Translations under genes and position numbers: made by a program | Assembly: GCA_014804695.1 (NCBI GenBank) | Contig: JAAUZJ010000010.1 | Location: forward strand, 56,120 to 120,119 | Direction of reading: 5' to 3' | DNA: 64,000 nucleotides | Source of the DNA: Lachnospiraceae bacterium | GTDB taxonomy: Bacteria; Bacillota; Clostridia; Lachnospirales; Lachnospiraceae | Shown: positions 14,628 through 28,959 of the stretch, piece by piece | Position numbering within the stretch: the first letter of the stretch is position 1 | Layout: each line of letters starts with the position of its first letter | The notes under the pieces: generated by a model | Seen by the model: only the letters and a program-made list of their open reading frames with translations | What the model was told of the DNA's origin: nothing | The model's database searches: none

Positions 14628-17600
14628 TTATTGTAAAAGATTTAAAAGCTTTTTAATGTTTTCGTTTGACTGTGCAAGCATTTTATGCCCAGCCTGCAAG
14701 AGTATACTTAAGTTGGAATATCTTATCATTTCTGTTGAAAGATCCGTATCGCGGATACGGGATTCGCTTGCCTGGACACGGTCAATAATAATATCATTGT
14801 TATTAATTGTGTGTTCCAAACGATTCTGTATTGCACCGTAAGTGCTTCGTTTGGAGCTTAACAGATTAATAGCCTCTTTTATACGGACGTTCGCTTTCTC
14901 AGCATATTTTTGCTTGCTGATAGTAATGGAATTAATACCCAAGGCAGTGGAACTGACGCTTATGCGTGGTATTTCCATAGTTTGGTTTGCCTCGGAACCG
15001 ACTTGAATCACTAATGGATCAAGGGAATCTCTGCCTTCCTCCTCCAAGAATAGCGTGCTCCTCGCACTTCCACCGATATCAGTTATCGAGTGGGATCCCA
15101 AAGCTTTATAGGCAATTTGCAGGTGTCCATTCTCAATAGATGCTTTCAGAGGCGCGGATTTGCCGTTATCATCCCCATTTTCAAACTTTTCATTCAAGAG
15201 ATTGGCGAACTCTTCTGTAGTGTAGTACGTATTCTCCGGAAATGTGTATTGATAAGGAACTGAGTCCGCAGAAAGTGTAAGTACATTCTGTCCCGGCTTA
15301 AAAGTAATGCCGTTTGACAGATTTTTTGTTCCTTCTATATAAGTCGCATTGGGATTGATTGTTGTCTTGTAGAAAAGAAAGCCTGCCGCGCTGCCGCGTA
15401 CACCGTCTATAATGTATTGTCCTACATGAGGTTCCGCACCGTCCTTTTTTGTTAGTTTGATCTGTAGCGCAACATCATCAATGGCACCAACAACCTCTGT
15501 ATTCTTTCCACCGATAGAGACCTCTATATTAAAGTCATAAAATCCCTTTGCCTCAAATTCTTTCTGTATTTCTTCTTGCAGTTTTTCGGCAATTTCATCA
15601 CCGGTATAAGTGCCTTCAGGAATCTTTATATTCATATCAATTGTATGACTGCCATTGGAGTCTGGATAAGTAAAATCAAAAGTAAAAATGTCATTAGCTC
15701 CATCTATAATTTCAACAGTCTCTGTGCTCAAATCCTTGCGTCCGATAATATAGGCATCATCAAAGCCATAGTATTGGCCTTTTGTTACGCTTACATTTTT
15801 GTTCATACTCTGGGTGATGAGTACGTTTTCATAAAAGCTGTCTGATGCAGTAATAGAGCCTGCGGAAGAGGAGAACTCAAGCCTTCCGTCCGTTGTAATA
15901 TCAACAGTGATTTTTCCATTTAAAGCGCTGTCAGCGTCAATAGCAGCCTGTACTGCATTTTTCAAAGAGTCTTTGTCATATTTGCCTTCAGCAATTGTAA
16001 TCTCGGCAGAAATCCTAGAAGAACCTTGACCAATTGTTAAGTTCAGCTTATTGTTGCTGCTGTCTAACGTTATCGAATCAGAAACAGCGTAGCGGGTACG
16101 TAAAATGGACTTACTTGCAGGCTGGGAGTAAGGATCGCTAGTGGAAGTCGTCGTTCCATGAATAGCGCTCCAGGCGGAACTGCTTTGATCAAAGTAAATA
16201 TGGTAGCGGCCAGCTTTGTCCTCATTAGGTATAGCAGTCAGGGTAAGCTTATTATTCTTATATTCAGCTGTTATGCTGCTAAAGTAGATATTGTTTGATG
16301 ATTTCATTTGGTTATTTATTTGTGTAACAATATCATTTATACTATAAGTTCCTACAGGCAGGGTAACGGTTTGAGTAACGGTGCTTTGACCTTCGATGTA
16401 AGAATAGAAGGTGATTTGATTCGCGTTGCTCGTAATCTTTATATCATTCTGTCTGTTAGCGGAAATTGAAACGGAAGCCGATGCAAAATCTGTTATCTGT
16501 GTCTCCGTAGTTCCCTCTTTTGATATTACCCTTCCTGCGCTAGAGCTATAAGTTGCGCTGTTTATACTTGTCGTAGTGCCTACGAACAGTTTTTCATAGG
16601 TATCGTTTTTATGGTCGTTATCAACCTCAATGGTCTGGACATCAGCAGTCTGTGCAACGATGGAAATTCTTCCGGAAGAAGAGTTGTACTGAAACTCAAT
16701 CGCAATCTTATCTTTTATCTCAGCAAAGGAAGAATTTTCTTTAAGTTTGTTTATAAAGTCCTGTCCATTTGTATAATGTCCGCTAATACCGCTTATGGTA
16801 TAAGTCTGTCCGTTATTGATATTTAAAGTCAAGGTATCATTAGGCAGTGTAAATTCGTTCCTTAGATTGGCATACCCAGTAAAATGCGCAGTATTTCCGG
16901 TACTTGTAGTAGGTAACCAATTTGTGATACAAAATAGAGCATTATAAGTATTGACAGCGACAGAATCCGTCGTATCAAATTCCAGAGAGCTGTTGCTGCC
17001 ATATAGCAGGCTGGATAGTGTTAAATAATAACCACCTCCACTATAAGTAGTATAGGCTTTTACGGCGTCTTTAAGTCCTTTCGCTTCAAGCTGATTATTG
17101 ATTTCATCACGGATCTCCGAAATGGTATACCCACCATCCTTATCCTCAAACTTAATTTCCGTATATTCCGACGCACCGTTTACTTTAAAACGCAGGATAT
17201 TATTCCCATTTTCACTGGATAATTTGAAATTACCAGTAGACGAAGAACTGTAGTAAGCCGTGCCTGTGATAGAAGCGGCAGTGCTGCTTGAGAAACCATA
17301 CTGTACGTTATCATAAAATACAGAAGAATACTTAATCTCTGCATTTGAATCATCCACTTTAAACATGTTTCCTTTCAGACCGACAATACTTACCGAGTCT
17401 CCGCCAGTGATCTGGATGCAGGAGTCTTCATACTCTTTTGCAACAATACCGGCTGCATCAGAATTTCGAGACAGCAATCTATTGATCTCGTTGATCATCT
17501 CGGAACGAGAGTAATACCCGGGAGAAAGGGTTATGGAAATATATTTGGGACCGCTAGCTCTTTCCACATAGAATTCAAGCCGGTCATTTTCTCCGCTTTT

Positions 17601-18422
17601 TATTTCCAACTTAGTTCCTACACTAAATACAGTGGTACCCAGCAGACTGGAAGAAGCGCTGCCATTAAAAGAGTCGAAAAGGAGATAGGAAAGAGAACCA
17701 TCTACAAAATCGATCTTCGTTGGCGTTCCGTCAGCTTTTTCAAAATTCAGATTGCAGTAGCCGTCGCTGGTGAGTTCCAATACAAAGCCGGGATTAGAAG
17801 GTATCATGTTGCTTAAAGCATCATCTATTTCATCGATTAACTCCTGTGTAGTATAAACTCCTGCAGGAACCGTAATCGTATAATCGCTGGGCTCATAAGA
17901 GTCAGGCAGATGTATGTTAAGTTCATTGTTCATTTCAGAAACGGTATGAAGCTGGTTGTCATCCCATCTTTTACTTCCGGAAATTTGATAATAAGAAGGT
18001 TCGTGTTGCTCAAATAGAGGAATGCCGGTGCCGAAATCAGATGTGTTATTGATCCGGTCAATTTCTGTGCGGAGCTGGTCAAATTCAACATTCATTGCCA
18101 TACGGTCACTATCGGACCAGGTTCCGTTAAGTGCTTTAATCGTCAATTCATTCATGCGCTGCAGCATAGTATGTATTTCGTCCATAGCGCCGTCTGCAGA
18201 CTGTACGAAAGCAACACCGTCTTTTGTGTTGTTGGTTGCCTGCATCAGCCCCCTGATCTGTCTGCGCATAATTTCGGAAATACCAAGACCGGCTGGATCA
18301 TCGGCAGCGCTATTTATTTTATATCCGGAGGAAACTTTTCTTGTGGATTCCGCATAGGATTCGATGTTGACATTAACGAGACGGATAGCATTCAGTGATT
18401 GAATATTATGTGTAACTTTCAT
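14628..18422 (-). CDS. Giant flagellin (1264 aa) with large repetitive central insert
   Basis: N-term MKVTHNIQSLNAIRLVNVN...KVSSGYKINSAADDPAGLGISEIMRRQIRGL and C-term NVRIKEAINLLSSKRSTYGAIQNRLEHTINN...ASESRIRDTDLSTEMIRYS...QAGHKMLAQSNENIKKLLNLLQ are classic flagellin D0/D1. Confidence 0.93.
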   Translation of the reverse strand: MKVTHNIQSLNAIRLVNVNIESYAESTRKVSSGYKINSAADDPAGLGISEIMRRQIRGLMQATNNTKDGVAFVQSADGAMDEIHTMLQRMNELTIKALNGTWSDSDRMAMNVEFDQLRTEIDRINNTSDFGTGIPLFEQHEPSYYQISGSKRWDDNQLHTVSEMNNELNIHLPDSYEPSDYTITVPAGVYTTQELIDEIDDALSNMIPSNPGFVLELTSDGYCNLNFEKADGTPTKIDFVDGSLSYLLFDSFNGSASSSLLGTTVFSVGTKLEIKSGENDRLEFYVERASGPKYISITLSPGYYSRSEMINEINRLLSRNSDAAGIVAKEYEDSCIQITGGDSVSIVGLKGNMFKVDDSNAEIKYSSVFYDNVQYGFSSSTAASITGTAYYSSSSTGNFKLSSENGNNILRFKVNGASEYTEIKFEDKDGGYTISEIRDEINNQLEAKGLKDAVKAYTTYSGGGYYLTLSSLLYGSNSSLEFDTTDSVAVNTYNALFCITNWLPTTSTGNTAHFTGYANLRNEFTLPNDTLTLNINNGQTYTISGISGHYTNGQDFINKLKENSSFAEIKDKIAIEFQYNSSSGRISIVAQTADVQTIEVDNDHKNDTYEKLFVGTTTSINSATYSSSAGRVISKEGTTETQITDFASASVSISANRQNDIKITSNANQITFYSYIEGQSTVTQTVTLPVGTYSINDIVTQINNQMKSSNNIYFSSITAEYKNNKLTLTAIPNEDKAGRYHIYFDQSSSAWSAIHGTTTSTSDPYSQPASKSILRTRYAVSDSITLDSSNNKLNLTIGQGSSRISAEITIAEGKYDKDSLKNAVQAAIDADSALNGKITVDITTDGRLEFSSSAGSITASDSFYENVLITQSMNKNVSVTKGQYYGFDDAYIIGRKDLSTETVEIIDGANDIFTFDFTYPDSNGSHTIDMNIKIPEGTYTGDEIAEKLQEEIQKEFEAKGFYDFNIEVSIGGKNTEVVGAIDDVALQIKLTKKDGAEPHVGQYIIDGVRGSAAGFLFYKTTINPNATYIEGTKNLSNGITFKPGQNVLTLSADSVPYQYTFPENTYYTTEEFANLLNEKFENGDDNGKSAPLKASIENGHLQIAYKALGSHSITDIGGSARSTLFLEEEGRDSLDPLVIQVGSEANQTMEIPRISVSSTALGINSITISKQKYAEKANVRIKEAINLLSSKRSTYGAIQNRLEHTINNNDIIIDRVQASESRIRDTDLSTEMIRYSNLSILLQAGHKMLAQSNENIKKLLNLLQ

Positions 18423-18508
18423 TTTTATACCTATCTGCGCACTGCGATGCGCATTTGAACTACTTAGGTTGAAAACGCATTTTTATTCAACCTTATATCA
18501 TATATAAT

Positions 18509-18536
18509 GTATCGGAAATGTTTCAAAAAAAGTTTA
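18509..18536 (-). promoter_or_regulatory. Sigma-D/sigma-28-type promoter of giant flagellin
   Basis: On - strand TAAA-N16-TCCGATAC, close to TAAA-N14-16-GCCGATAT consensus, ~90 nt upstream of start. Confidence 0.75.
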
Positions 18537-18821: not shown

Positions 18822-19979
18822 TCAGTAAACTGTCTCCACATCTTTAATCAAATTATCTTCCACCTGAAATTTCCATAGAGAGTGCCCTGGCAGACGGTGT
18901 TCTGTGAGATAGTAAGCGCCGTCTAAGGCAGTGATATAGTAAGGCGTACCGCCGCCTATGAAATTGTTATAGATGTCTTCGTAACCGCCATCCATTAAAG
19001 TGGACAGGTCTCTTGTGCGGATGATGGTGGCATAATCCTGATTGCCGGTAATGTCTGTAGAAATAGTAATATAGAAGTAATCTTGAATCGGTGTCAATTG
19101 TATCATGCCCGCCATGCTGTCAGGAACGGGGTAGGTATCAAGAATCTCAAAGCTGTCAAGGGAAGCTCGGATGATAGAAGAGTTACCCGAAACAAAATAT
19201 ATTTCATCATCAACGATGGTGAAAGAGCGCACATAGACATTATTAAGTGTTTCAATACGGCGGATTTCAGTCAGATACATTCGGGTATCGTCCGGGTTAT
19301 GGCGAAACAGATACATCTCACCACTCATGGAGCTCCATGCATAGAAGGTGTCGGTGGGGGCGTCGTAGATGATATAATGCGGTCTGTTTCCGATATTGTC
19401 AAAAGTCTGTGTGTGAACATAAGCATCTTCTTTTTTCTCAAAAATCAGAATGCGGTGCCGCTCTGTATCGTCAATCAGATATACGGTGCCGTCACTTGCG
19501 AGGGTATGTCCCTTGTCTATATCGTCTGTCATGACTTTCCATTCATTAATTGGGCCTGTCAGATTGTCGTTATATATTACCTGATCATGATAGCAGTCTA
19601 CAAGAAAATAAGTACCATCTACTTTGGTGATGTAAGTGGGAACACATAAATCTGTACAGGGATTGGTTTTGATATTTGTGACATTTGTGTCAGAAATGAT
19701 GCCGGATGCACGTATGTACTCTGTAATGAAGTTGGGGGTTCGTGCATCATCTGAGGATACAGCGGAGACGTTCATATCTGTTTTCTTGGATAAATTGTAT
19801 TTGATAATCAAGCCAAGCAGGCAGACGCATAATGTGACTATGAGAAAAATTACTTTTGCTGCAGGGTGGAATATATCTTTTCTTTGTCTTTCTTGAGTGT
19901 TTTTCATTTCGGCGGCTCCTGTGTATTGTTTTCCTGTTGACTGAGTAAGAATGTCTTTTATATATGCTGATATCTCCAC
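18822..19979 (-). CDS. Membrane-anchored protein, probable extracellular beta-propeller-like domain
   Basis: Single TM VIFLIVTLCVCLLGLIIKY, followed by repeated blade-like segments (TYFLVDCYHDQVIYNDNLTG, TVYLIDDTERHRILIFEK, TFYAWSSMSGEMYLFRH); start overlaps end of araC-type gene. Confidence 0.6.
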   Translation of the reverse strand: MEISAYIKDILTQSTGKQYTGAAEMKNTQERQRKDIFHPAAKVIFLIVTLCVCLLGLIIKYNLSKKTDMNVSAVSSDDARTPNFITEYIRASGIISDTNVTNIKTNPCTDLCVPTYITKVDGTYFLVDCYHDQVIYNDNLTGPINEWKVMTDDIDKGHTLASDGTVYLIDDTERHRILIFEKKEDAYVHTQTFDNIGNRPHYIIYDAPTDTFYAWSSMSGEMYLFRHNPDDTRMYLTEIRRIETLNNVYVRSFTIVDDEIYFVSGNSSIIRASLDSFEILDTYPVPDSMAGMIQLTPIQDYFYITISTDITGNQDYATIIRTRDLSTLMDGGYEDIYNNFIGGGTPYYITALDGAYYLTEHRLPGHSLWKFQVEDNLIKDVETVY

Positions 19980-20800
19980 TGTCTCGGCGAACTCCCATAT
20001 ACATTCTTAAAAGCGCGTGAAAAATGAAGCGGATTGGGATATCCCACCGCATTGCTGATATCTGTAATGGATAAATCGGTAAGTTTTAAAAGTTCGGCGG
20101 CTTTGGTCATACGGTAGGAGATAAGGAAGTCCTGAGGAGATTTTCCCATACTCTCGTGAAAAATCTTGCCGAAATAGCTGCGGTTTAAGCCACAGCAGGC
20201 GGCGATATCTTCTACGGAAATAGCATTTTGGAAGTTCTGCTCTATAAAAGATATTGCTTCCTTTATGTAAAAATCGCGCAGACTGTTTCCCTTATTTAAC
20301 TGTGCAAAGCTGCATGAACGTACGAGACTGTCTATAAATAAATAGAGGTGTCCGATTAAGTGAAAAGGGGATTCTTCTTTGTGATTTACAATATATAACA
20401 TTTCCGATTTCATTGTTTCGGCAATATCTTTATACCGTGCCTTATAAATTGGCTGGTCCATACTAAGACCGGCCATTTCTATTGTTTCTTTTACACGCAG
20501 TCCGTCAAATTCAAGCCAGACATATTCCCAGGGAATCTCATAATCGGCAATATAGGTGCAGACCTGATTAGGAAAAAGCATAAAGCCCTGCCCGCTTTTG
20601 ATTTGATAGGTGATAGATTCGCCTTTGGAATTGTTGGCAATTAAAGTACCTGTACCCGATAGGCATAAATGGAATAGGTAGTGATTTCGTGCAGCGGGCC
20701 CAAAGGAATGGGATGGATCGCACTTTTCCCAGCCAAACTGGTATAGTCCTAAATCTATAAAATTTTCACTTGGGAATACTGAAAAGATCACTTCGCTCAT
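19958..20800 (-). CDS. AraC-family transcriptional regulator
   Basis: C-terminal HTH: SVEDIAACCGLNRSYFGKIFHESMGKSPQDFLISYRMTKAAELLKLTDLSITDISNAVGYPNPLHFSRAFKNVYGSSPRQWR; N-terminal cupin-type sugar-binding domain. Confidence 0.95.
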   Translation of the reverse strand: MSEVIFSVFPSENFIDLGLYQFGWEKCDPSHSFGPAARNHYLFHLCLSGTGTLIANNSKGESITYQIKSGQGFMLFPNQVCTYIADYEIPWEYVWLEFDGLRVKETIEMAGLSMDQPIYKARYKDIAETMKSEMLYIVNHKEESPFHLIGHLYLFIDSLVRSCSFAQLNKGNSLRDFYIKEAISFIEQNFQNAISVEDIAACCGLNRSYFGKIFHESMGKSPQDFLISYRMTKAAELLKLTDLSITDISNAVGYPNPLHFSRAFKNVYGSSPRQWRYQHI

Positions 20801-20884
20801 TTAATTTTCCACCCGGCTTCTATGTATTTCTTTATTTATATTTTTGATACAAAAATTGTTGCTTTTTATAGTGTTAAAATCATT

Positions 20885-20958
20885 ATATACCAAAATGCTA
20901 GATGACTTCAACTAAAGAGAATAAAAATAGCATTAAGGCATAAAATATACAAAATGCT
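20885..20958. promoter_or_regulatory. Direct-repeat candidate AraC-family operator (two ~14-15 bp copies, 60-bp start spacing)
   Basis: ATATACCAAAATGCT (20885-20899) and ATATACAAAATGCT (20945-20958) in the divergent araC/ABC intergenic region. Confidence 0.5.
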
Positions 20959-21026
20959 GACATTTACTGATAGCATAATGATATGTTAGAGTGTATATAT
21001 CAAAAATATGGGAAGGAGAAATAACT

Positions 21027-22301
21027 ATGAAAGGAAAAGGAATAAGGTACTTAGGCCTAGCATTATGCTGTATTGTAACTGCATTAGGCGTTCAAGGCTG
21101 TGGGAATTCCGGTGACGGCGGCAAGACCAAAATTGAGATTGTTCAGTATAAACCGGAAGCGGCAGGCTATTTTGATGCTTTGGAAGAGGAATTTAATGCA
21201 GCACATGATGACATAGAATTGAAGATCATGTCCCCAAACGATGCGATGGTTATTTTGAAAACAAGGTTTATCCGTGAGGATTATCCGGATATTATAGGAA
21301 TCGGCGGGGATATCAATTACTCCTATTTTGTGGATGCGGAAATATTAGCAGATATTTCAGATTATGAGGGACTTAAAGATATCAAGCAGGCATATCTTGA
21401 CATTGATGAGGCGCTTGAACTGGTTCCGACGGAAGGTACATATGCAATTCCGTATGTGGCAAATGCGGCAGGTATTCTTTACAATAAGGATATGTTTGAA
21501 GAGCATGGCTGGGAAATCCCGGAAAACTGGGGAGAATTGCAGTCTTTATGTGCAGATATCCAGTCGGAAGGAATTCTTCCTTTTTACTTTGGATTTAAGG
21601 ATACATGGACCTGTCTGGCACCTTGGAATTCTATGGCGGTAAGTCTTGCACCTGCAGATGTGACCAAACAAGTCAATAAAGGTGAAACGACATTTGCCAA
21701 AGAATATGAGGAAGTGTCCGAGAAATATTTGGATCTTTTACAGTATGGCGTAGACGATCCGTTTGCTTATGGCTACAATGACGCATGTACTGCTTTTGCA
21801 AGGGGAGAAGCAGCAATGTATCCGATTGGAAGTTATGCGATTCCGCAGATATTATCTGTAAATCCTGATTTGAATATTGACTCATTTGTTATGCCGGCAA
21901 ACGATGAAGCGGATAAAAACACACTTAATTCCGGAATTGATCTTCAGTTTTGCGTGACGGCTGAGTGTAAGAATAAAGAGGCGGCTTATGAGGTTTTAGA
22001 CTTCCTCTATGAACAGGAAAATATGCAGAAATATATTGATGCACAGAATGCGGTTCCATGTAAGGAAGGTGATTTTGAAATATCACCTATGCTTGCCGGT
22101 ATGAAAGAATATATTGATGCGGGCAATATGACGGATTTCCAGGATCACTATTATCCGTCCGAAATGGCTGTAGATGCGCAGATTCAGACTTTCTTAATAC
22201 AAAAGGATGTGGACGCCTTTTTACAGAAATTCGATAAGGACTGGCTGCGGTATAACAGGGATATTATCCGCATGGTACAGGAGTATGAAAAGCAGCATTG
22301 A
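21027..22301 (+). CDS. Sugar ABC transporter substrate-binding lipoprotein
   Basis: Lipobox LGVQGCGNSG; SBP type-1 fold motifs; RBS ggaaggag. Confidence 0.92.
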   Translation: MKGKGIRYLGLALCCIVTALGVQGCGNSGDGGKTKIEIVQYKPEAAGYFDALEEEFNAAHDDIELKIMSPNDAMVILKTRFIREDYPDIIGIGGDINYSYFVDAEILADISDYEGLKDIKQAYLDIDEALELVPTEGTYAIPYVANAAGILYNKDMFEEHGWEIPENWGELQSLCADIQSEGILPFYFGFKDTWTCLAPWNSMAVSLAPADVTKQVNKGETTFAKEYEEVSEKYLDLLQYGVDDPFAYGYNDACTAFARGEAAMYPIGSYAIPQILSVNPDLNIDSFVMPANDEADKNTLNSGIDLQFCVTAECKNKEAAYEVLDFLYEQENMQKYIDAQNAVPCKEGDFEISPMLAGMKEYIDAGNMTDFQDHYYPSEMAVDAQIQTFLIQKDVDAFLQKFDKDWLRYNRDIIRMVQEYEKQH

Positions 22302-23206
22302 ATATAGAAAAAATTATAAGGAGAGAAGAAGATATGGATATGCCAAATGAGAGAAAAAGAACTTTTTTACTTATTACAATTCCCATTTTAGCGTTGTTTA
22401 TCTGTTTTAATACAATTCCTCTTATCAGGGGTGTTATATACAGTTTTACGAATTTTAAGGGTTTTGGAAAATATGACTGGGTAGGACTTCGTAATTACAT
22501 TGATTTGTTTTCGGATTTGCGTGTGGGTAAATCTTACTGGTTTACATTTAAGCTGGCAATTGTGTCAACAGTTGTGGTAAATGTATTAAGTCTGGTTTTA
22601 GCGCTTGCTCTTAACAGTCAGATACGGGCTAAAAGCTTTTTCAGAGGAGCATACTTTCTGCCTAATATATTAGGCGCACTGGTTGTAGGTTATATATTTA
22701 ATTATTTTTTTACATATATTCTTCCTGCACTGGGTTCCATGATAGGTTCAGAGGCCTTAAGCGCAAGTATATTGTCAAATCCTAAGACAGCATGGCTGGG
22801 AATTCTTGCGGTGTGCGCATGGCAGGCCGTTGCAATGAATACTATAATTTATATTTCAGGTTTACAGACGGTGCCGGAAGATGTATATGAGGCAGGCGGC
22901 TTAGACGGGGCAACCGGATTTAAACAATTCCGTTATTTAACTTTTCCATTGATTATTCCGTTCTTTTCGATTAATATGGTCTTGTGTGTAAAGAATTTTT
23001 TAATGGTGTTCGATCAGGTCATGGCTTTGACAAAAGGAGGCCCTGCACAGAGTACGGAATCTATTTCTTATCTGATATACAACAACGGTATGTCAGGCGG
23101 ACAGTTTGGATTCCAGAGTGCTAATGCCGTAATATTCTTTTTGGTAATTGTAACGCTTTCCGTTGCACAGATGAGATTTTCCGGTAAAAAGGAGGAACAG
23201 CTATGA
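22298..23206 (+). CDS. Sugar ABC transporter permease (MalF/MsmF-like)
   Basis: Six-TM permease with EAGGLDGATGFKQFRYLTFPLI EAA loop. Confidence 0.93.
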   Translation: MNIEKIIRREEDMDMPNERKRTFLLITIPILALFICFNTIPLIRGVIYSFTNFKGFGKYDWVGLRNYIDLFSDLRVGKSYWFTFKLAIVSTVVVNVLSLVLALALNSQIRAKSFFRGAYFLPNILGALVVGYIFNYFFTYILPALGSMIGSEALSASILSNPKTAWLGILAVCAWQAVAMNTIIYISGLQTVPEDVYEAGGLDGATGFKQFRYLTFPLIIPFFSINMVLCVKNFLMVFDQVMALTKGGPAQSTESISYLIYNNGMSGGQFGFQSANAVIFFLVIVTLSVAQMRFSGKKEEQL

Positions 23207-24036
23207 TCGAGAAAAAAACGAATTGGGCAGCAATGGTTGTGTTGATTCTTGGATTGAGCGCTATTGTTTTCCCGCTGTATTTGACTGTTATTATTGCATT
23301 TAAACAGCCTTCAGAAATGACAAACAGTATAAGCGGTATTTTATCTTTGCCAAAGACATGGAGTTTAAGTAACTTTAAGGAAGCAATGAGGGTAACTGAT
23401 TTCTGGCGTTCACTGCGAAACAGTTTGCTTATTACTACAATAACAGTTGCTTTATCTATTGTAATTCACTCTATTATGGGTTATGTACTGGGAAGAAATA
23501 AGGGAAGCAGTAAATTTTACAACTTTGTATATTTATTTATTGTGAGCGGTATGTTTGTACCTTTTGCCATTTTAATGATGCCTCTTGCAAAACAGACGGC
23601 AGAGCTGGGGCTGGCAAACTGGTTCGGTGTAATTATCTTATATGTAGTGTTCTATATGCCTATGAATATATTACTTTATTCCGGATACCTTGTTAATATT
23701 CCGATGGCTCTTGAGGAAGCAGCAAGAGTGGACGGAGCGTCAACATGGAGAACATACTGGAAGATCATATTTCCGATAATGAAGCCTATGCATGCAACGG
23801 TTGCGGTTTTAACAGCCCTTGCCGTATGGAATGATGTAATGACGCCGCTTGTTATTATGGCAGGTTCAGATCAGAATACCCTGCCGCTTGCTCAGTTGAA
23901 TTTCCAGTCGCAGTTTGGAACTAACTACAATTTAGCATTTGCATCATACCTGCTGGCACTGATTCCAATTCTGATTTTCTATGTAATCTGCCAGAAACAG
24001 ATTTTGAACGGTGTAGTAAATGGTGCGGTAAAATAG
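23203..24036 (+). CDS. Sugar ABC transporter permease (MalG/MsmG-like)
   Basis: EEAARVDGASTWRTYWKIIFPIMKP EAA loop. Confidence 0.94.
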   Translation: MIEKKTNWAAMVVLILGLSAIVFPLYLTVIIAFKQPSEMTNSISGILSLPKTWSLSNFKEAMRVTDFWRSLRNSLLITTITVALSIVIHSIMGYVLGRNKGSSKFYNFVYLFIVSGMFVPFAILMMPLAKQTAELGLANWFGVIILYVVFYMPMNILLYSGYLVNIPMALEEAARVDGASTWRTYWKIIFPIMKPMHATVAVLTALAVWNDVMTPLVIMAGSDQNTLPLAQLNFQSQFGTNYNLAFASYLLALIPILIFYVICQKQILNGVVNGAVK

Positions 24037-24046
24037 GAGAAACGAA

Positions 24047-26224
24047 ATGGCGATTTACTATCAGCACGAAGAACGAATTTTTACATTGAATACTGATAAT
24101 ACAACATATCAGATTAAAGTGGATAAGTATGGTTTTGTCCTGCATTTGTACTATGGGAAAAAAATATCCGGTAACATGGATTATCTATTGACTTATTATG
24201 ATAGAGGTTTTTCGGGAAATCCAGCGGATGCGGGCGATGACAGAACATATTCCATGGATGCACTTCCACAGGAATATCCGGTAATGGGTATGGGTGATTA
24301 TCGTAACAGCGCTGTTATTATACGTAACGCAGACTGTTCTGAGTGCTGTGACCTTCGCTATGTCAGTCACGAAATAAAAGAAGGAAAATATTCATTAAAG
24401 GGTCTTCCGGCGGTGTATGCAGCAGAAGATGAAGCGCAGACATTGGAAATTTTATTGGAAGACCCTGTAAGTAAAGTGCAGGTAAAGCTTCTGTATGGTG
24501 TGCTTGAAAAAGAAGACATCATTACAAGGAGCGCAGTGATCACAAATGACGGTGAAGACCGTATCATTGTGGAAAAGGCGGCATCGGCATGTTTGGATTT
24601 TATTAGCGGAGACTATGATTTTATCAGTTTCTATGGCAGGCATGCTATGGAGCGCAATTTTCAGAGGACGGAAATTGCACATGGAAGCCATACGATCGGA
24701 AGCCGCAGAGGAGCTTCCAGTCATCAATATAATCCGGCAGTAATAATTTCCGGAAAAGATACTACCGAAGATAACGGAAGCTGTTACGGACTTGCTTTTG
24801 TATACAGCGGTAATTTTATGTGTGAAGCGGAAAAGGACCAGTATGGCCAGACGAGAGTGATAATGGGACTGCAAAGCGATTTATTCCACTATCCGCTTAG
24901 TAAGGATGAAAGCCTAATTGTTCCTGAAACGATTCTATGTTATTCCTCACAAGGCTTTGGAACATTGTCAAAAAAATATCATACTTGTATCAGGAAACAT
25001 ATATGCAGGGGAAAATACAGTAATAAACCAAGACCGATATTAATTAACAGCTGGGAAGCCGCATATTTTAATTTTAATGGAGAAACTATCTATAAGCTGG
25101 CAAAAGATGCTGTAGAGCTTGGCTTGGATATGGTTGTTATGGACGACGGCTGGTTTGGAAACAGGGAAGATGATAACAGCAGTTTAGGTGACTGGCAGGT
25201 AAATGAGAAAAAACTTGGCTGCACTTTAGGCGGGCTGATTCAAAAAATTAATGCTCTGGGAATAAAGTTTGGAATCTGGATAGAGCCGGAAATGGTATCG
25301 GAGAAAAGCAGTTTCTATAAAGATCATCCGGACTGGGTTATGAAGATACCAAAAAGGCAGCCTGTAAGGGGAAGAAATCAGCTTGTGCTTGACTTTTCAA
25401 GAGAAGAAGTGAGAACGCATGTTTTTAAACAGATATGTGATATATTGGATCAGGGAAATGTTGAATATATAAAATGGGATATGAATAGAAGTCTTGCGGA
25501 TATATATTCCATGGATAAGGAACAGGGCAGGGTCACTTATGATTATGTGCTTGGAGTTTATGACTTTTTGGAAAAATTGACGGGGAGATATCCGGATATA
25601 CTTATAGAAGGATGCTGCGGCGGCGGCGGAAGATTTGACGCGGGTATGCTATATTATGCGCCTCAGATATGGTGCAGTGATAATACGGATGCACTGGACC
25701 GCATAAAGATTCAGTATGGAACATCTTTCTTTTATCCTGTTTCTGCGGTCGGAGCCCATGTATCGGCATCGCCGAATCATCAGACCGGAAGAAGTATAAG
25801 TATACATACCAAGGGTGTTGTAGCGATGGCTGGTACTTTTGGGTATGAGCTTAATCCGGATGTGCTTACCAAAGAAGAAAAAGAAGAGATCAAGGAGCAG
25901 ATTGCCTGCTTTAAGAAAAATGAGGCTTTGATCAGTACAGGAGATTATTACCGCTTATCCAATCCTTACAAAGATGAGTATGCGGCATGGATGTTTGTGT
26001 CGGAAGATGCGAATGAAGCGTTATTAAGTGTTGTAATGCTAAAGATGCATGGGAATATGACGGTTAATTATGTGAAATTAAGAGGATTAAAAGCGGATGC
26101 AATATATAAGAATGAGGAGACAGGGCAGTGTTATTACGGCTCTGCGCTTATGGAAGCGGGGCTTCCTATGCCGGCGGAGCTGGTGGAGTATCCGGCTTAT
26201 CAATTTAGGTTTGTGAGGTGTTAA
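24047..26224 (+). CDS. Alpha-galactosidase, GH36
   Basis: MVVMDDGWFGNREDDNSSLGDW, YIKWDMNRSL, ILIEGCCGGGGRFDAGMLYYAPQIWCSDNTDALDR catalytic signatures. Confidence 0.95.
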   Translation: MAIYYQHEERIFTLNTDNTTYQIKVDKYGFVLHLYYGKKISGNMDYLLTYYDRGFSGNPADAGDDRTYSMDALPQEYPVMGMGDYRNSAVIIRNADCSECCDLRYVSHEIKEGKYSLKGLPAVYAAEDEAQTLEILLEDPVSKVQVKLLYGVLEKEDIITRSAVITNDGEDRIIVEKAASACLDFISGDYDFISFYGRHAMERNFQRTEIAHGSHTIGSRRGASSHQYNPAVIISGKDTTEDNGSCYGLAFVYSGNFMCEAEKDQYGQTRVIMGLQSDLFHYPLSKDESLIVPETILCYSSQGFGTLSKKYHTCIRKHICRGKYSNKPRPILINSWEAAYFNFNGETIYKLAKDAVELGLDMVVMDDGWFGNREDDNSSLGDWQVNEKKLGCTLGGLIQKINALGIKFGIWIEPEMVSEKSSFYKDHPDWVMKIPKRQPVRGRNQLVLDFSREEVRTHVFKQICDILDQGNVEYIKWDMNRSLADIYSMDKEQGRVTYDYVLGVYDFLEKLTGRYPDILIEGCCGGGGRFDAGMLYYAPQIWCSDNTDALDRIKIQYGTSFFYPVSAVGAHVSASPNHQTGRSISIHTKGVVAMAGTFGYELNPDVLTKEEKEEIKEQIACFKKNEALISTGDYYRLSNPYKDEYAAWMFVSEDANEALLSVVMLKMHGNMTVNYVKLRGLKADAIYKNEETGQCYYGSALMEAGLPMPAELVEYPAYQFRFVRC

Positions 26225-26241
26225 GAGGGAGAGTAATTGGT

Positions 26242-27252
26242 ATGAACCAAAGTTATGAAAAAATTATGGCACTAACTAAAGATGTAGAGAAAATGCTTAA
26301 GGATTATATTCTCATGCAGCCGGACATTTTAGCCGCTAGTGTAAATATAAATGAATTGAATAATATTCCACAAGGAGATGTGCCGGGAGAGAGGGTTGAG
26401 ATTAAGGAAAAACAGGTAATGAAGACTGGGCTTCTTTTTCAGGAAACTGCAAAAGCGTTAATACCATTGCTATCAAAGAATACTTATAAAAGAGCTGTAA
26501 TTACCATATGCGGAGGTTCGGGAGTTGGGAAGACCGGAATTGCGTCAATTTTTGCACATTATTTCAAATGTGCTGGGGTGGGCTGCTATATTCTTTCGGG
26601 AGACAATTATCCGCACCGGATTCCTAAGTATAATGATGCGGAAAGACTGTGGGTTTTTCGTGAGGGCGGTATACAGGGAATGGTTGAAGATGGTGTTTAT
26701 ACTGAGGAAAATTTTGATATTATAAATAAGTGGCAAAAGGAAGATGAAGATGCAAATCCGGCGCACCTTAATGATGCGGTGTGGTTTGCATCTTATCTTA
26801 ACGGAGGAAGGAAAGCGCTTGAAGCTTATCTTGGCACAGAAAAGGAGATTGCATTTAATGAGGTCGGAAGCATTGTTTCAGCTTTTAAGGATGGCGCGAA
26901 AGATATCTGGCTAAGGAGAATGGGGAGAGAAGAGACTGAATTATGGTATGAGAAGGTAGATTTTAGAGATACTAATATTCTGTTGATAGAATGGACACAT
27001 GGGAACAGTGATTATTATAAAGGAGTGGATTTCCCGATTTTATTAAACAGTACCCCAAGAGAAACATTGGCATACCGTAAATCAAGAAACAGGGACGGTC
27101 AGACCGATAGTGCGTTTACGACGCTTGTTTTGGAAATTGAGCAGGAAATGCTGCACCGTCAGGCTAAAAAAGCTAAGTTGATTCTTTCTAAATCAGGGCA
27201 GCTATTAAGTTATGATGAATATTGTAAAATAATGGAAGAAGGCGGAATGTAA
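26242..27252 (+). CDS. P-loop kinase-like protein, candidate stand-alone sucrose kinase
   Basis: Walker A GGSGVGKT; DNYPHRIPKYNDAERLWVFREGG; directly downstream of GH36, matching AgaSK kinase-domain context; ORF open from 26218. Confidence 0.7.
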   Translation: MNQSYEKIMALTKDVEKMLKDYILMQPDILAASVNINELNNIPQGDVPGERVEIKEKQVMKTGLLFQETAKALIPLLSKNTYKRAVITICGGSGVGKTGIASIFAHYFKCAGVGCYILSGDNYPHRIPKYNDAERLWVFREGGIQGMVEDGVYTEENFDIINKWQKEDEDANPAHLNDAVWFASYLNGGRKALEAYLGTEKEIAFNEVGSIVSAFKDGAKDIWLRRMGREETELWYEKVDFRDTNILLIEWTHGNSDYYKGVDFPILLNSTPRETLAYRKSRNRDGQTDSAFTTLVLEIEQEMLHRQAKKAKLILSKSGQLLSYDEYCKIMEEGGM

Positions 27253-27255
27253 GTT

Positions 27256-28959
27256 ATGAGTAAAGAAAAATATGTTGATAACGGACCTATGCTAAATGCT
27301 TATCCGGATAGTCTGGGAGGAAAATTGTCGGATATCGTATCACTGCTTGAAAAATCTGAGTTTCAGGATGTATTTCAGTCCTTTTATATACTTCCAAGCA
27401 TTTATCATTCTGACCTTGACCGCGGATTTTCGGTTATTGACTATGGGCTAAATGAACGGTTTGCCGATAAAAAAGATTTGGAAAATCTGAAAGAATTAGG
27501 CTTTAATTTTAAGTTGGATTTTATTTTGAATCATGCCTCGGTACTTTCCAAGCAGTTTCAGGATGTTATCAAAAACGGAGAAAAGTCGGAGTATAAAGAC
27601 TTTTTTATTAACTGGAACAAGTTTTGGGAAGGCTTGGGAGAGATGACTCCTGAAGGCTATATTTTGCCTGAGAAAAAACTTATACAGGACATGTTTTTCA
27701 GAAAACAGGGACTTCCGATTCTTATGGTGCGCTTTCCGGACGGAACGGAGGTGCCTTATTGGAATACTTTTTATCAGGAAATAAGATATGATCATATAGA
27801 GGCGCAGGATTTGATAGATCGTCTTGATATATCAGGTAAAGAGGCAGTAGAGTTTGCTGCCATTGTCAACAAAAATCTGGATGCAGGTAAGAAACCTGTG
27901 GATATAGAATTCGGCAAGTATGATAAGTACAAACAGTCTGTTGTATCTATGCTGGAATCCGCAAGAAACTACTTAGGACAGATGGATTTGAATATTAAAT
28001 CTCCTCTTGTTTGGAGCTTTTATGAAGATACATTAAATCAGCTTGCCGAATACGGAGCTAAGATTGTAAGGCTGGATGCATTTGCTTATGCACCTAAAGA
28101 ACCGGGGGAGAAAAATTTTATGAACGAACCCGGAACCTGGGAGCTGCTGGCCCGCGTACAGGAATTGGCGGATAAGAATCAATTGGAGTTGCTTCCGGAG
28201 ATTCATGCAGGCTATGAAGAGAAGGTTTATGAGACTCTGGCAAAGAAAGGATACATGATATATGATTTCTTTTTGCCGGGCTTAATTATAGATGCTATGG
28301 AGAGAAAAAACGGTGAGGTCCTGGCAGCATGGGCTGAAGAAATCAGGGAAAAAAAGATGCGCACCGTTAATATGCTGGGGTGCCACGACGGTATTCCACT
28401 GCTTGATTTAAAGGGGCTGATTCCCGAAAAAGAGATATTAGCTTTGATAGGTATCATTGTAGAGCGAGGTGGGTTTATAAAGAATCTTCATGGGCAGCAA
28501 AATGTCTATTATCAGGTTAACGCCACGTATTACAGTGCCTTGGGCGAAGATGATGGTAAGATGCTCTTGGCGAGGGCATTACAGTTATTCATGCCGGGAA
28601 AACCTCAAATTTGGTATCTTGATCTATTTGCCGGGAAAAACGATTACGAAGCGGTTGAAAAAGCCGGAGCGGGCGGTCATAAGGAGATTAACAGGACCAA
28701 TCTGTCTTTGGAAGAAATAGAAGAGAGAATGAAACTTGATGTTGTAAAAAAACAGATATCGATGCTGCAATTTAGAAATACATTTCCGGCATTTGGGTTT
28801 GAGGCTGAATTTTCGGTCAACTGTAATAACAGTAGTCTGGAAATGTGCTGGAAAAATCAGGGATGCAGCGCAGCTCTTAGTGTGGATTTTGAGGATGGTT
28901 CTTTTCGGATGGAAGGTAAAAATGAAGATGGGGCGGTGGTTTATTCGGAAAGTAATTGA
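27256..28959 (+). CDS. gtfA: GH13 sucrose phosphorylase-like enzyme
   Basis: MLNAYPDSLGGKLSDI, FYILPSIYHSDLDRGFSVIDY, LDFILNHASVLSKQFQ, VRLDAFAYAPKEPG, LPEIHAGYEEK, LGCHDGIPLLDLKGL. Confidence 0.88.
   Translation: MSKEKYVDNGPMLNAYPDSLGGKLSDIVSLLEKSEFQDVFQSFYILPSIYHSDLDRGFSVIDYGLNERFADKKDLENLKELGFNFKLDFILNHASVLSKQFQDVIKNGEKSEYKDFFINWNKFWEGLGEMTPEGYILPEKKLIQDMFFRKQGLPILMVRFPDGTEVPYWNTFYQEIRYDHIEAQDLIDRLDISGKEAVEFAAIVNKNLDAGKKPVDIEFGKYDKYKQSVVSMLESARNYLGQMDLNIKSPLVWSFYEDTLNQLAEYGAKIVRLDAFAYAPKEPGEKNFMNEPGTWELLARVQELADKNQLELLPEIHAGYEEKVYETLAKKGYMIYDFFLPGLIIDAMERKNGEVLAAWAEEIREKKMRTVNMLGCHDGIPLLDLKGLIPEKEILALIGIIVERGGFIKNLHGQQNVYYQVNATYYSALGEDDGKMLLARALQLFMPGKPQIWYLDLFAGKNDYEAVEKAGAGGHKEINRTNLSLEEIEERMKLDVVKKQISMLQFRNTFPAFGFEAEFSVNCNNSSLEMCWKNQGCSAALSVDFEDGSFRMEGKNEDGAVVYSESN

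Follow-up and report, generated by a model that had tools for sequence, protein, structure and literature searches.

A giant flagellin from a Lachnospiraceae bacterium with a central array of eight related modules

We describe a giant flagellin encoded in a 64,000-nucleotide stretch of a Lachnospiraceae genome (contig JAAUZJ010000010.1 of assembly GCA_014804695.1, positions 56,120 to 120,119; hereafter the window), in which flagellin ends flank an insert of ~1000 amino acids (aa) made of exactly eight modules of ~120 aa. On balance, we favour as the whole explanation an accessory flagellin whose module chain leaves D1 and returns to it. The open reading frame (ORF; 14628–18422, minus strand) is uninterrupted and encodes 1264 aa, placing the protein among giant flagellins (>1000 aa with flagellin ends). 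The D0/D1 ends reported in an earlier note on this DNA were recovered by a Pfam scan—Flagellin_N at aa 3–131 (E 3.6e-34; 118.2 bits against a gathering score of 26.6) and Flagellin_C at aa 1181–1263 (E 5.1e-18; 65.6 bits against 23)—with no significant match between the two. The gene and its parts are as follows.

14628..18422, minus strand: giant flagellin gene, 1264 aa (ORF with Pfam and flagellin model scans)
18030..18422, minus strand: N-terminal D0/D1 helical part, aa 1–131, Flagellin_N (Pfam; helices at the start of the AlphaFold model)
17619..17969, minus strand: module 1, aa 152–268
17244..17624, minus strand: module 2, aa 267–393
16857..17234, minus strand: module 3, aa 397–522
16518..16871, minus strand: module 4, aa 518–635
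16137..16460, minus strand: module 5, aa 655–762, with module 4 the least conserved
15762..16088, minus strand: module 6, aa 779–887
15348..15737, minus strand: module 7, aa 896–1025
14982..15326, minus strand: module 8, aa 1033–1147
14634..14882, minus strand: C-terminal D1/D0 helical part, aa 1181–1263, Flagellin_C (Pfam)

The modules were delimited with an iterated hidden Markov model (HMM), the E-values of which are in-sample, and the repeat was confirmed by independent means. All eight core motifs on which the earlier note had based its estimate of about eight degenerate modules are present letter for letter (at aa 180, 293, 420, 539, 681, 803, 926 and 1057), with core-to-core spacings of 113–142 aa. 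Self-alignment with hhalign of a profile of five equal-length orthologs gave the repeat signal, with off-diagonal alignments of up to 770 columns (E 1.5e-32 to 1.4e-8) at offsets of one, two, three or more modules. For a non-circular test, an HMM built only from modules 1–2 of other species was scanned against aa 395–1140, with 200 shuffles as a control; six matches fell on modules 3–8 (2.0 bits for module 4 and 6.0–29.2 bits for the other five), against 8.2 bits for the best shuffle, modules 4 and 8 not being significant alone. The reverse design, using the last two modules, gave six matches on modules 1–6 (5.1–27.3 bits; best of 200 shuffles, 4.3 bits). Module 4 was therefore weak in both designs and module 8 in the first. 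The modules are only ~20% identical to one another, and their region has a high content of S, T, N and Y.

Structure prediction for aa 45–1235 from 15 sequences (AlphaFold; mean predicted local distance difference test (pLDDT) score, 81; predicted template modelling score (pTM), 0.49) showed long D1 helices at both ends and, in between, repeated strands–helix–strands (beta-alpha-beta) units, as the earlier note had anticipated; the scores make the predicted domain folds confident, but not their mutual arrangement. The best fold matches of this long model in PDB were the flagellin of Geovibrio thiophilus (9au6; E 7.8e-14), Pseudomonas aeruginosa FliC, Vibrio cholerae FlaA-D and FliD, with scores that are partly due to D1; the Geovibrio flagellin is the best match over the long chain but has 792 aa, a much shorter insert and 12% identity in the structural alignment. 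A two-module model (pLDDT 70) gave weak matches to flagellin outer domains and FliD (best E 7e-3), and sequence-profile matches in PDB were also weak (FliD 6sih, E 0.018; P. aeruginosa flagellin 8erm, E 0.02). Comparison of the Flagellin_IN regions of FliD with the module profile (hhalign) yielded a probability of 88.6% (E 2.6e-6 for one comparison; reversed control, 1.1%), which is moderate, not conclusive, evidence of kinship. At the Pfam gathering score (22.7 bits), Flagellin_IN (PF07196) had no match in the giant protein or its genome, and only 2 of the 54 modules of the giant-flagellin family matched it, below the cut-off (best E 0.019). The resemblance to Flagellin_IN suggested in the earlier note is thus upheld as remote profile similarity, but not as family membership: the modules are likely to be remote relatives of the Flagellin_IN/D2-type outer domains found in FliD and in the flagellins of P. 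aeruginosa and V. cholerae, and differ from those systems in forming a chain of eight, none of which reaches the Pfam family.

Further matches were read as reflecting a widespread G-x-Y-[ST]-helix fold rather than descent. These include phrog_19400 (119 aa, of unknown function), hit by 17 of the 54 modules at E down to 6e-11, the flagellin of Brevibacillus phage Sundance (one module; 27%, E 0.03), and adenovirus-penton, tail-sheath and similar proteins. The idea that the modules came from a phage or plasmid was rejected, as tblastn gave no match in phages (E 0.01) or plasmids and viral contigs contained no confirmed relative.

Orthologs vary in module number, as the earlier note had thought worth checking. 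The HMM counted 8 modules in 14 genes (13 genomes) of 1249–1306 aa and 9–11 in genes of 1519–1909 aa, although the counts of 9–10 in the longest genes may omit diverged modules. Position-specific profiles mapped the 8-module onto the 11-module genes in order (1–4 to 1–4, 5 to 8 (or 7) and 6–8 to 9–11), placing the extra modules of the long type, about three, in the middle of the array; modules 7 and 8 are the most alike pair in the long type. This mapping indicates that the array is old, that modules keep their positional identity and that length differs mid-array. The ortholog L027 is 71% identical to the window protein and has the same length and module number, with per-module identities of.92,.67,.60,.42,.42,.55,.83 and.88 for modules 1–8. 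Identity fell towards the middle in 91/91 eight-module pairs (permutation p 0.0015) and 55/55 eleven-module pairs (p 0.00055), bearing in mind that the pairs are not independent and that alignment is harder where modules diverge. Between the window gene and L027, the ratio of non-synonymous to synonymous substitution rates (dN/dS) was 0.11–0.13 in the flanks and 0.16–0.67 in the modules; across three close pairs it was <1 for all modules that allowed a calculation (0.04–0.67). The synonymous rate (dS) was higher mid-array in two of the three pairs, including window versus L027 (0.22–0.32 in flanks and end modules; 0.6–0.9 in modules 2–6), which suggests recombination or exchange of the middle. 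Repeats can mislead assembly, but a fusion of genes or an assembly artefact is practically inconceivable and was ruled out by orthologs of the same length and module number, given that 14 genes in 13 genomes share one 8-module layout, that identity between modules is only ~20% and that dN/dS is <1.

Related giants were found in 12 of 396 sampled Lachnospiraceae genomes (10 of 333 genera) and in 22 of 78 genomes of the source genus; a class-wide sample, mostly outside Lachnospiraceae, contained them in 2 of 388 genomes, of the same genus only. Named carriers are mostly uncultured Lachnospiraceae, together with Bacterium C-53. In 298 family genomes, no significant match to the modules fell outside such giant flagellin ORFs. 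The source genome also encodes shorter flagellin-family ORFs of 382, 494 and 282 aa, a contig-end fragment and a FlgL-like ORF, which answers the earlier note's question of whether a normal-length flagellin accompanies the giant; shorter Flagellin_N ORFs, some FlgL-like, also occur in 15 of 15 positive genomes checked. Two genomes carry two different giants each (L028 and L030 in G465; L110 and L111 in G430), and another that has a modular giant encodes a second long flagellin ORF of 1071 aa (G272:C39:35037-35447). One ortholog is split by a single in-frame stop (L032:7119-7121) into ORFs of 712 and 981 aa, either as a pseudogene or through sequencing error.

We infer the following arrangement. 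The D0/D1 ends would polymerize into an ordinary filament core, with or instead of shorter flagellins, and each subunit would bear, between its D1 halves, eight separately folding beta-alpha-beta modules resembling D2/Flagellin_IN domains. Because the D1 halves flank the array, such a chain must begin and end at the filament surface, leaving D1 at module 1 and returning at module 8. An out-and-back path with the middle outermost is the simplest given that conservation falls from both ends to the middle; modules 1–2 and 7–8 would then lie near the filament surface and modules 4–5 farthest out. The outer part would owe its variation to divergence and to strains exchanging the middle of the array, and in relatives also to about three additional mid-array modules. 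Published giant flagellins (PMC6248924) and sheaths of outer domains (PMC8931119) would lead one to expect, by analogy, a thick coat on the filament, which may alter swimming in viscous gut contents and present a variable outer surface. Three points weigh against this arrangement: the hairpin path is deduced from the conservation gradient, and weak constraint or mid-array recombination would produce such a gradient equally; the pTM is only 0.49, which leaves the course of the chain unpredicted; and the sigma-28-like site described below was not found upstream of every ortholog.

Three other roles were considered. A purely mechanical one, in which a thick layer of outer domains serves swimming in viscous surroundings, is rather improbable: filaments of giant flagellins measure >=30 nm (PMC6248924), but the 15 carrier genomes checked all retain shorter flagellin-family genes, so that the giant is not necessarily the main subunit of the propeller. 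An adhesive filament, in which the modules attach to mucin, glycans or other cells while the reach is set by the length of the chain, is unlikely. The domains are exposed, repeated, variable and abundant in S, T, N and Y, and several carriers look host-associated from their records; nevertheless, no module exceeded the cut-off for a known binding domain (one of 54 matched Mucin_bdg at E 0.035, chance level for 54 scans), and the modules resemble outer domains of flagellins that are not known mainly as adhesins. We give still less credence to an antigenic or phage-receptor shield, in which outer modules vary to evade antibodies or flagellum-binding phages while the base stays constant. The middle modules do diverge fastest, with a raised dS that suggests import by recombination, but the dN/dS values give no sign of net positive selection and relaxed constraint accounts for the divergence equally well. 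An enzymatic filament, as entertained in the earlier note, found no backing: the Pfam scan detected no catalytic domain in the insert and the protein contains no HExxH motif.

Two other identities were also rejected. The best flagellin model for the protein was Hag (173.5 bits), above the model for the hook–filament junction protein FlgL (TIGR02550; 80.4 bits, under its 127.2 cut-off). Residues R89, L93 and E113 appear to match the residues through which Salmonella FliC contacts TLR5 (R90, L94 and E114). Flagellinolysin (PMC5595980) shares the enlarged central insert, but the giant lacks its metallopeptidase domain and HExxH motif and scored 41.3 against 205 bits, with the best stretch (aa 1133–1194) in the C-terminal flagellin part.

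Two elements flank the coding region.

18510..18536, minus strand: sigma-28-like promoter TAAA-N16-TCCGATAC, 114 nt upstream of the start codon
14571..14595, minus strand: terminator-like hairpin past the stop codon, with a weak T-run

Within the window, the promoter-like site alone matches TAAA-N14..17-CCGATA exactly, against 0.93 matches expected by chance. It is kept in L027, whereas only some orthologs have a good site; as a sign of sigma-28 control it is suggestive only. The leader has no strong ribosome-binding site, and just upstream of the start codon it carries a short inverted repeat (GCGCA-TCGCAG-TGCGC; 18437–18452, minus strand) that is also present in L027. The gene stands alone: neighbours are kept in only a few relatives, and an operon partner was rejected on this ground. 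The adjacent ORF (18822–19979, minus strand) encodes a 385-aa protein with no Pfam match and a likely membrane segment, kept beside the giant gene in L027 only, and genes for an AraC-type regulator, an ABC (ATP-binding cassette) sugar importer and an alpha-galactosidase (19958–28959) form an ordinary sugar-uptake locus.

Giant flagellins, including ones that have two outer regions in tandem, have been described previously (Thomson et al. 2018, PMC6248924), and the carriers listed there include the Firmicutes species Eubacterium plexicaudatum. The protein described here shares with them flagellin ends, a length >1000 aa and an insert enlarged by internal domain duplication; by published description, it is set apart from the Oceanospirillales giants, which have two tandem DE regions and a DX insert, by its 8–11 units of one module type. 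The distinct type proposed in the earlier note is thus reasonable for chain length, but not for kind, and the chain appears to be a new variant among giant flagellins. Whether it also constitutes a new class of filament architecture—a hairpin arm of 8–11 like domains, attached to D1 at both ends and lengthened or swapped at its distal middle over a fixed base—is a tentative proposal to which we give somewhat less than even weight. Thomson et al. did not settle whether outer domains that have been duplicated fold continuously or interleaved; the three-module difference between size classes would favour continuous units.

A chain of 8–11 outer domains of one type is longer than any that we found described in the literature. 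Outer domains were lacking in 53 of the 54 Bacillota flagellins of one published sample (PMC12445082); by contrast, part of a common gut family bears such a chain. These flagellins come in two size classes among related species and combine a fixed base with a variable middle, which makes them a natural series for studying the effects of outer domains on swimming, adhesion and immune recognition.
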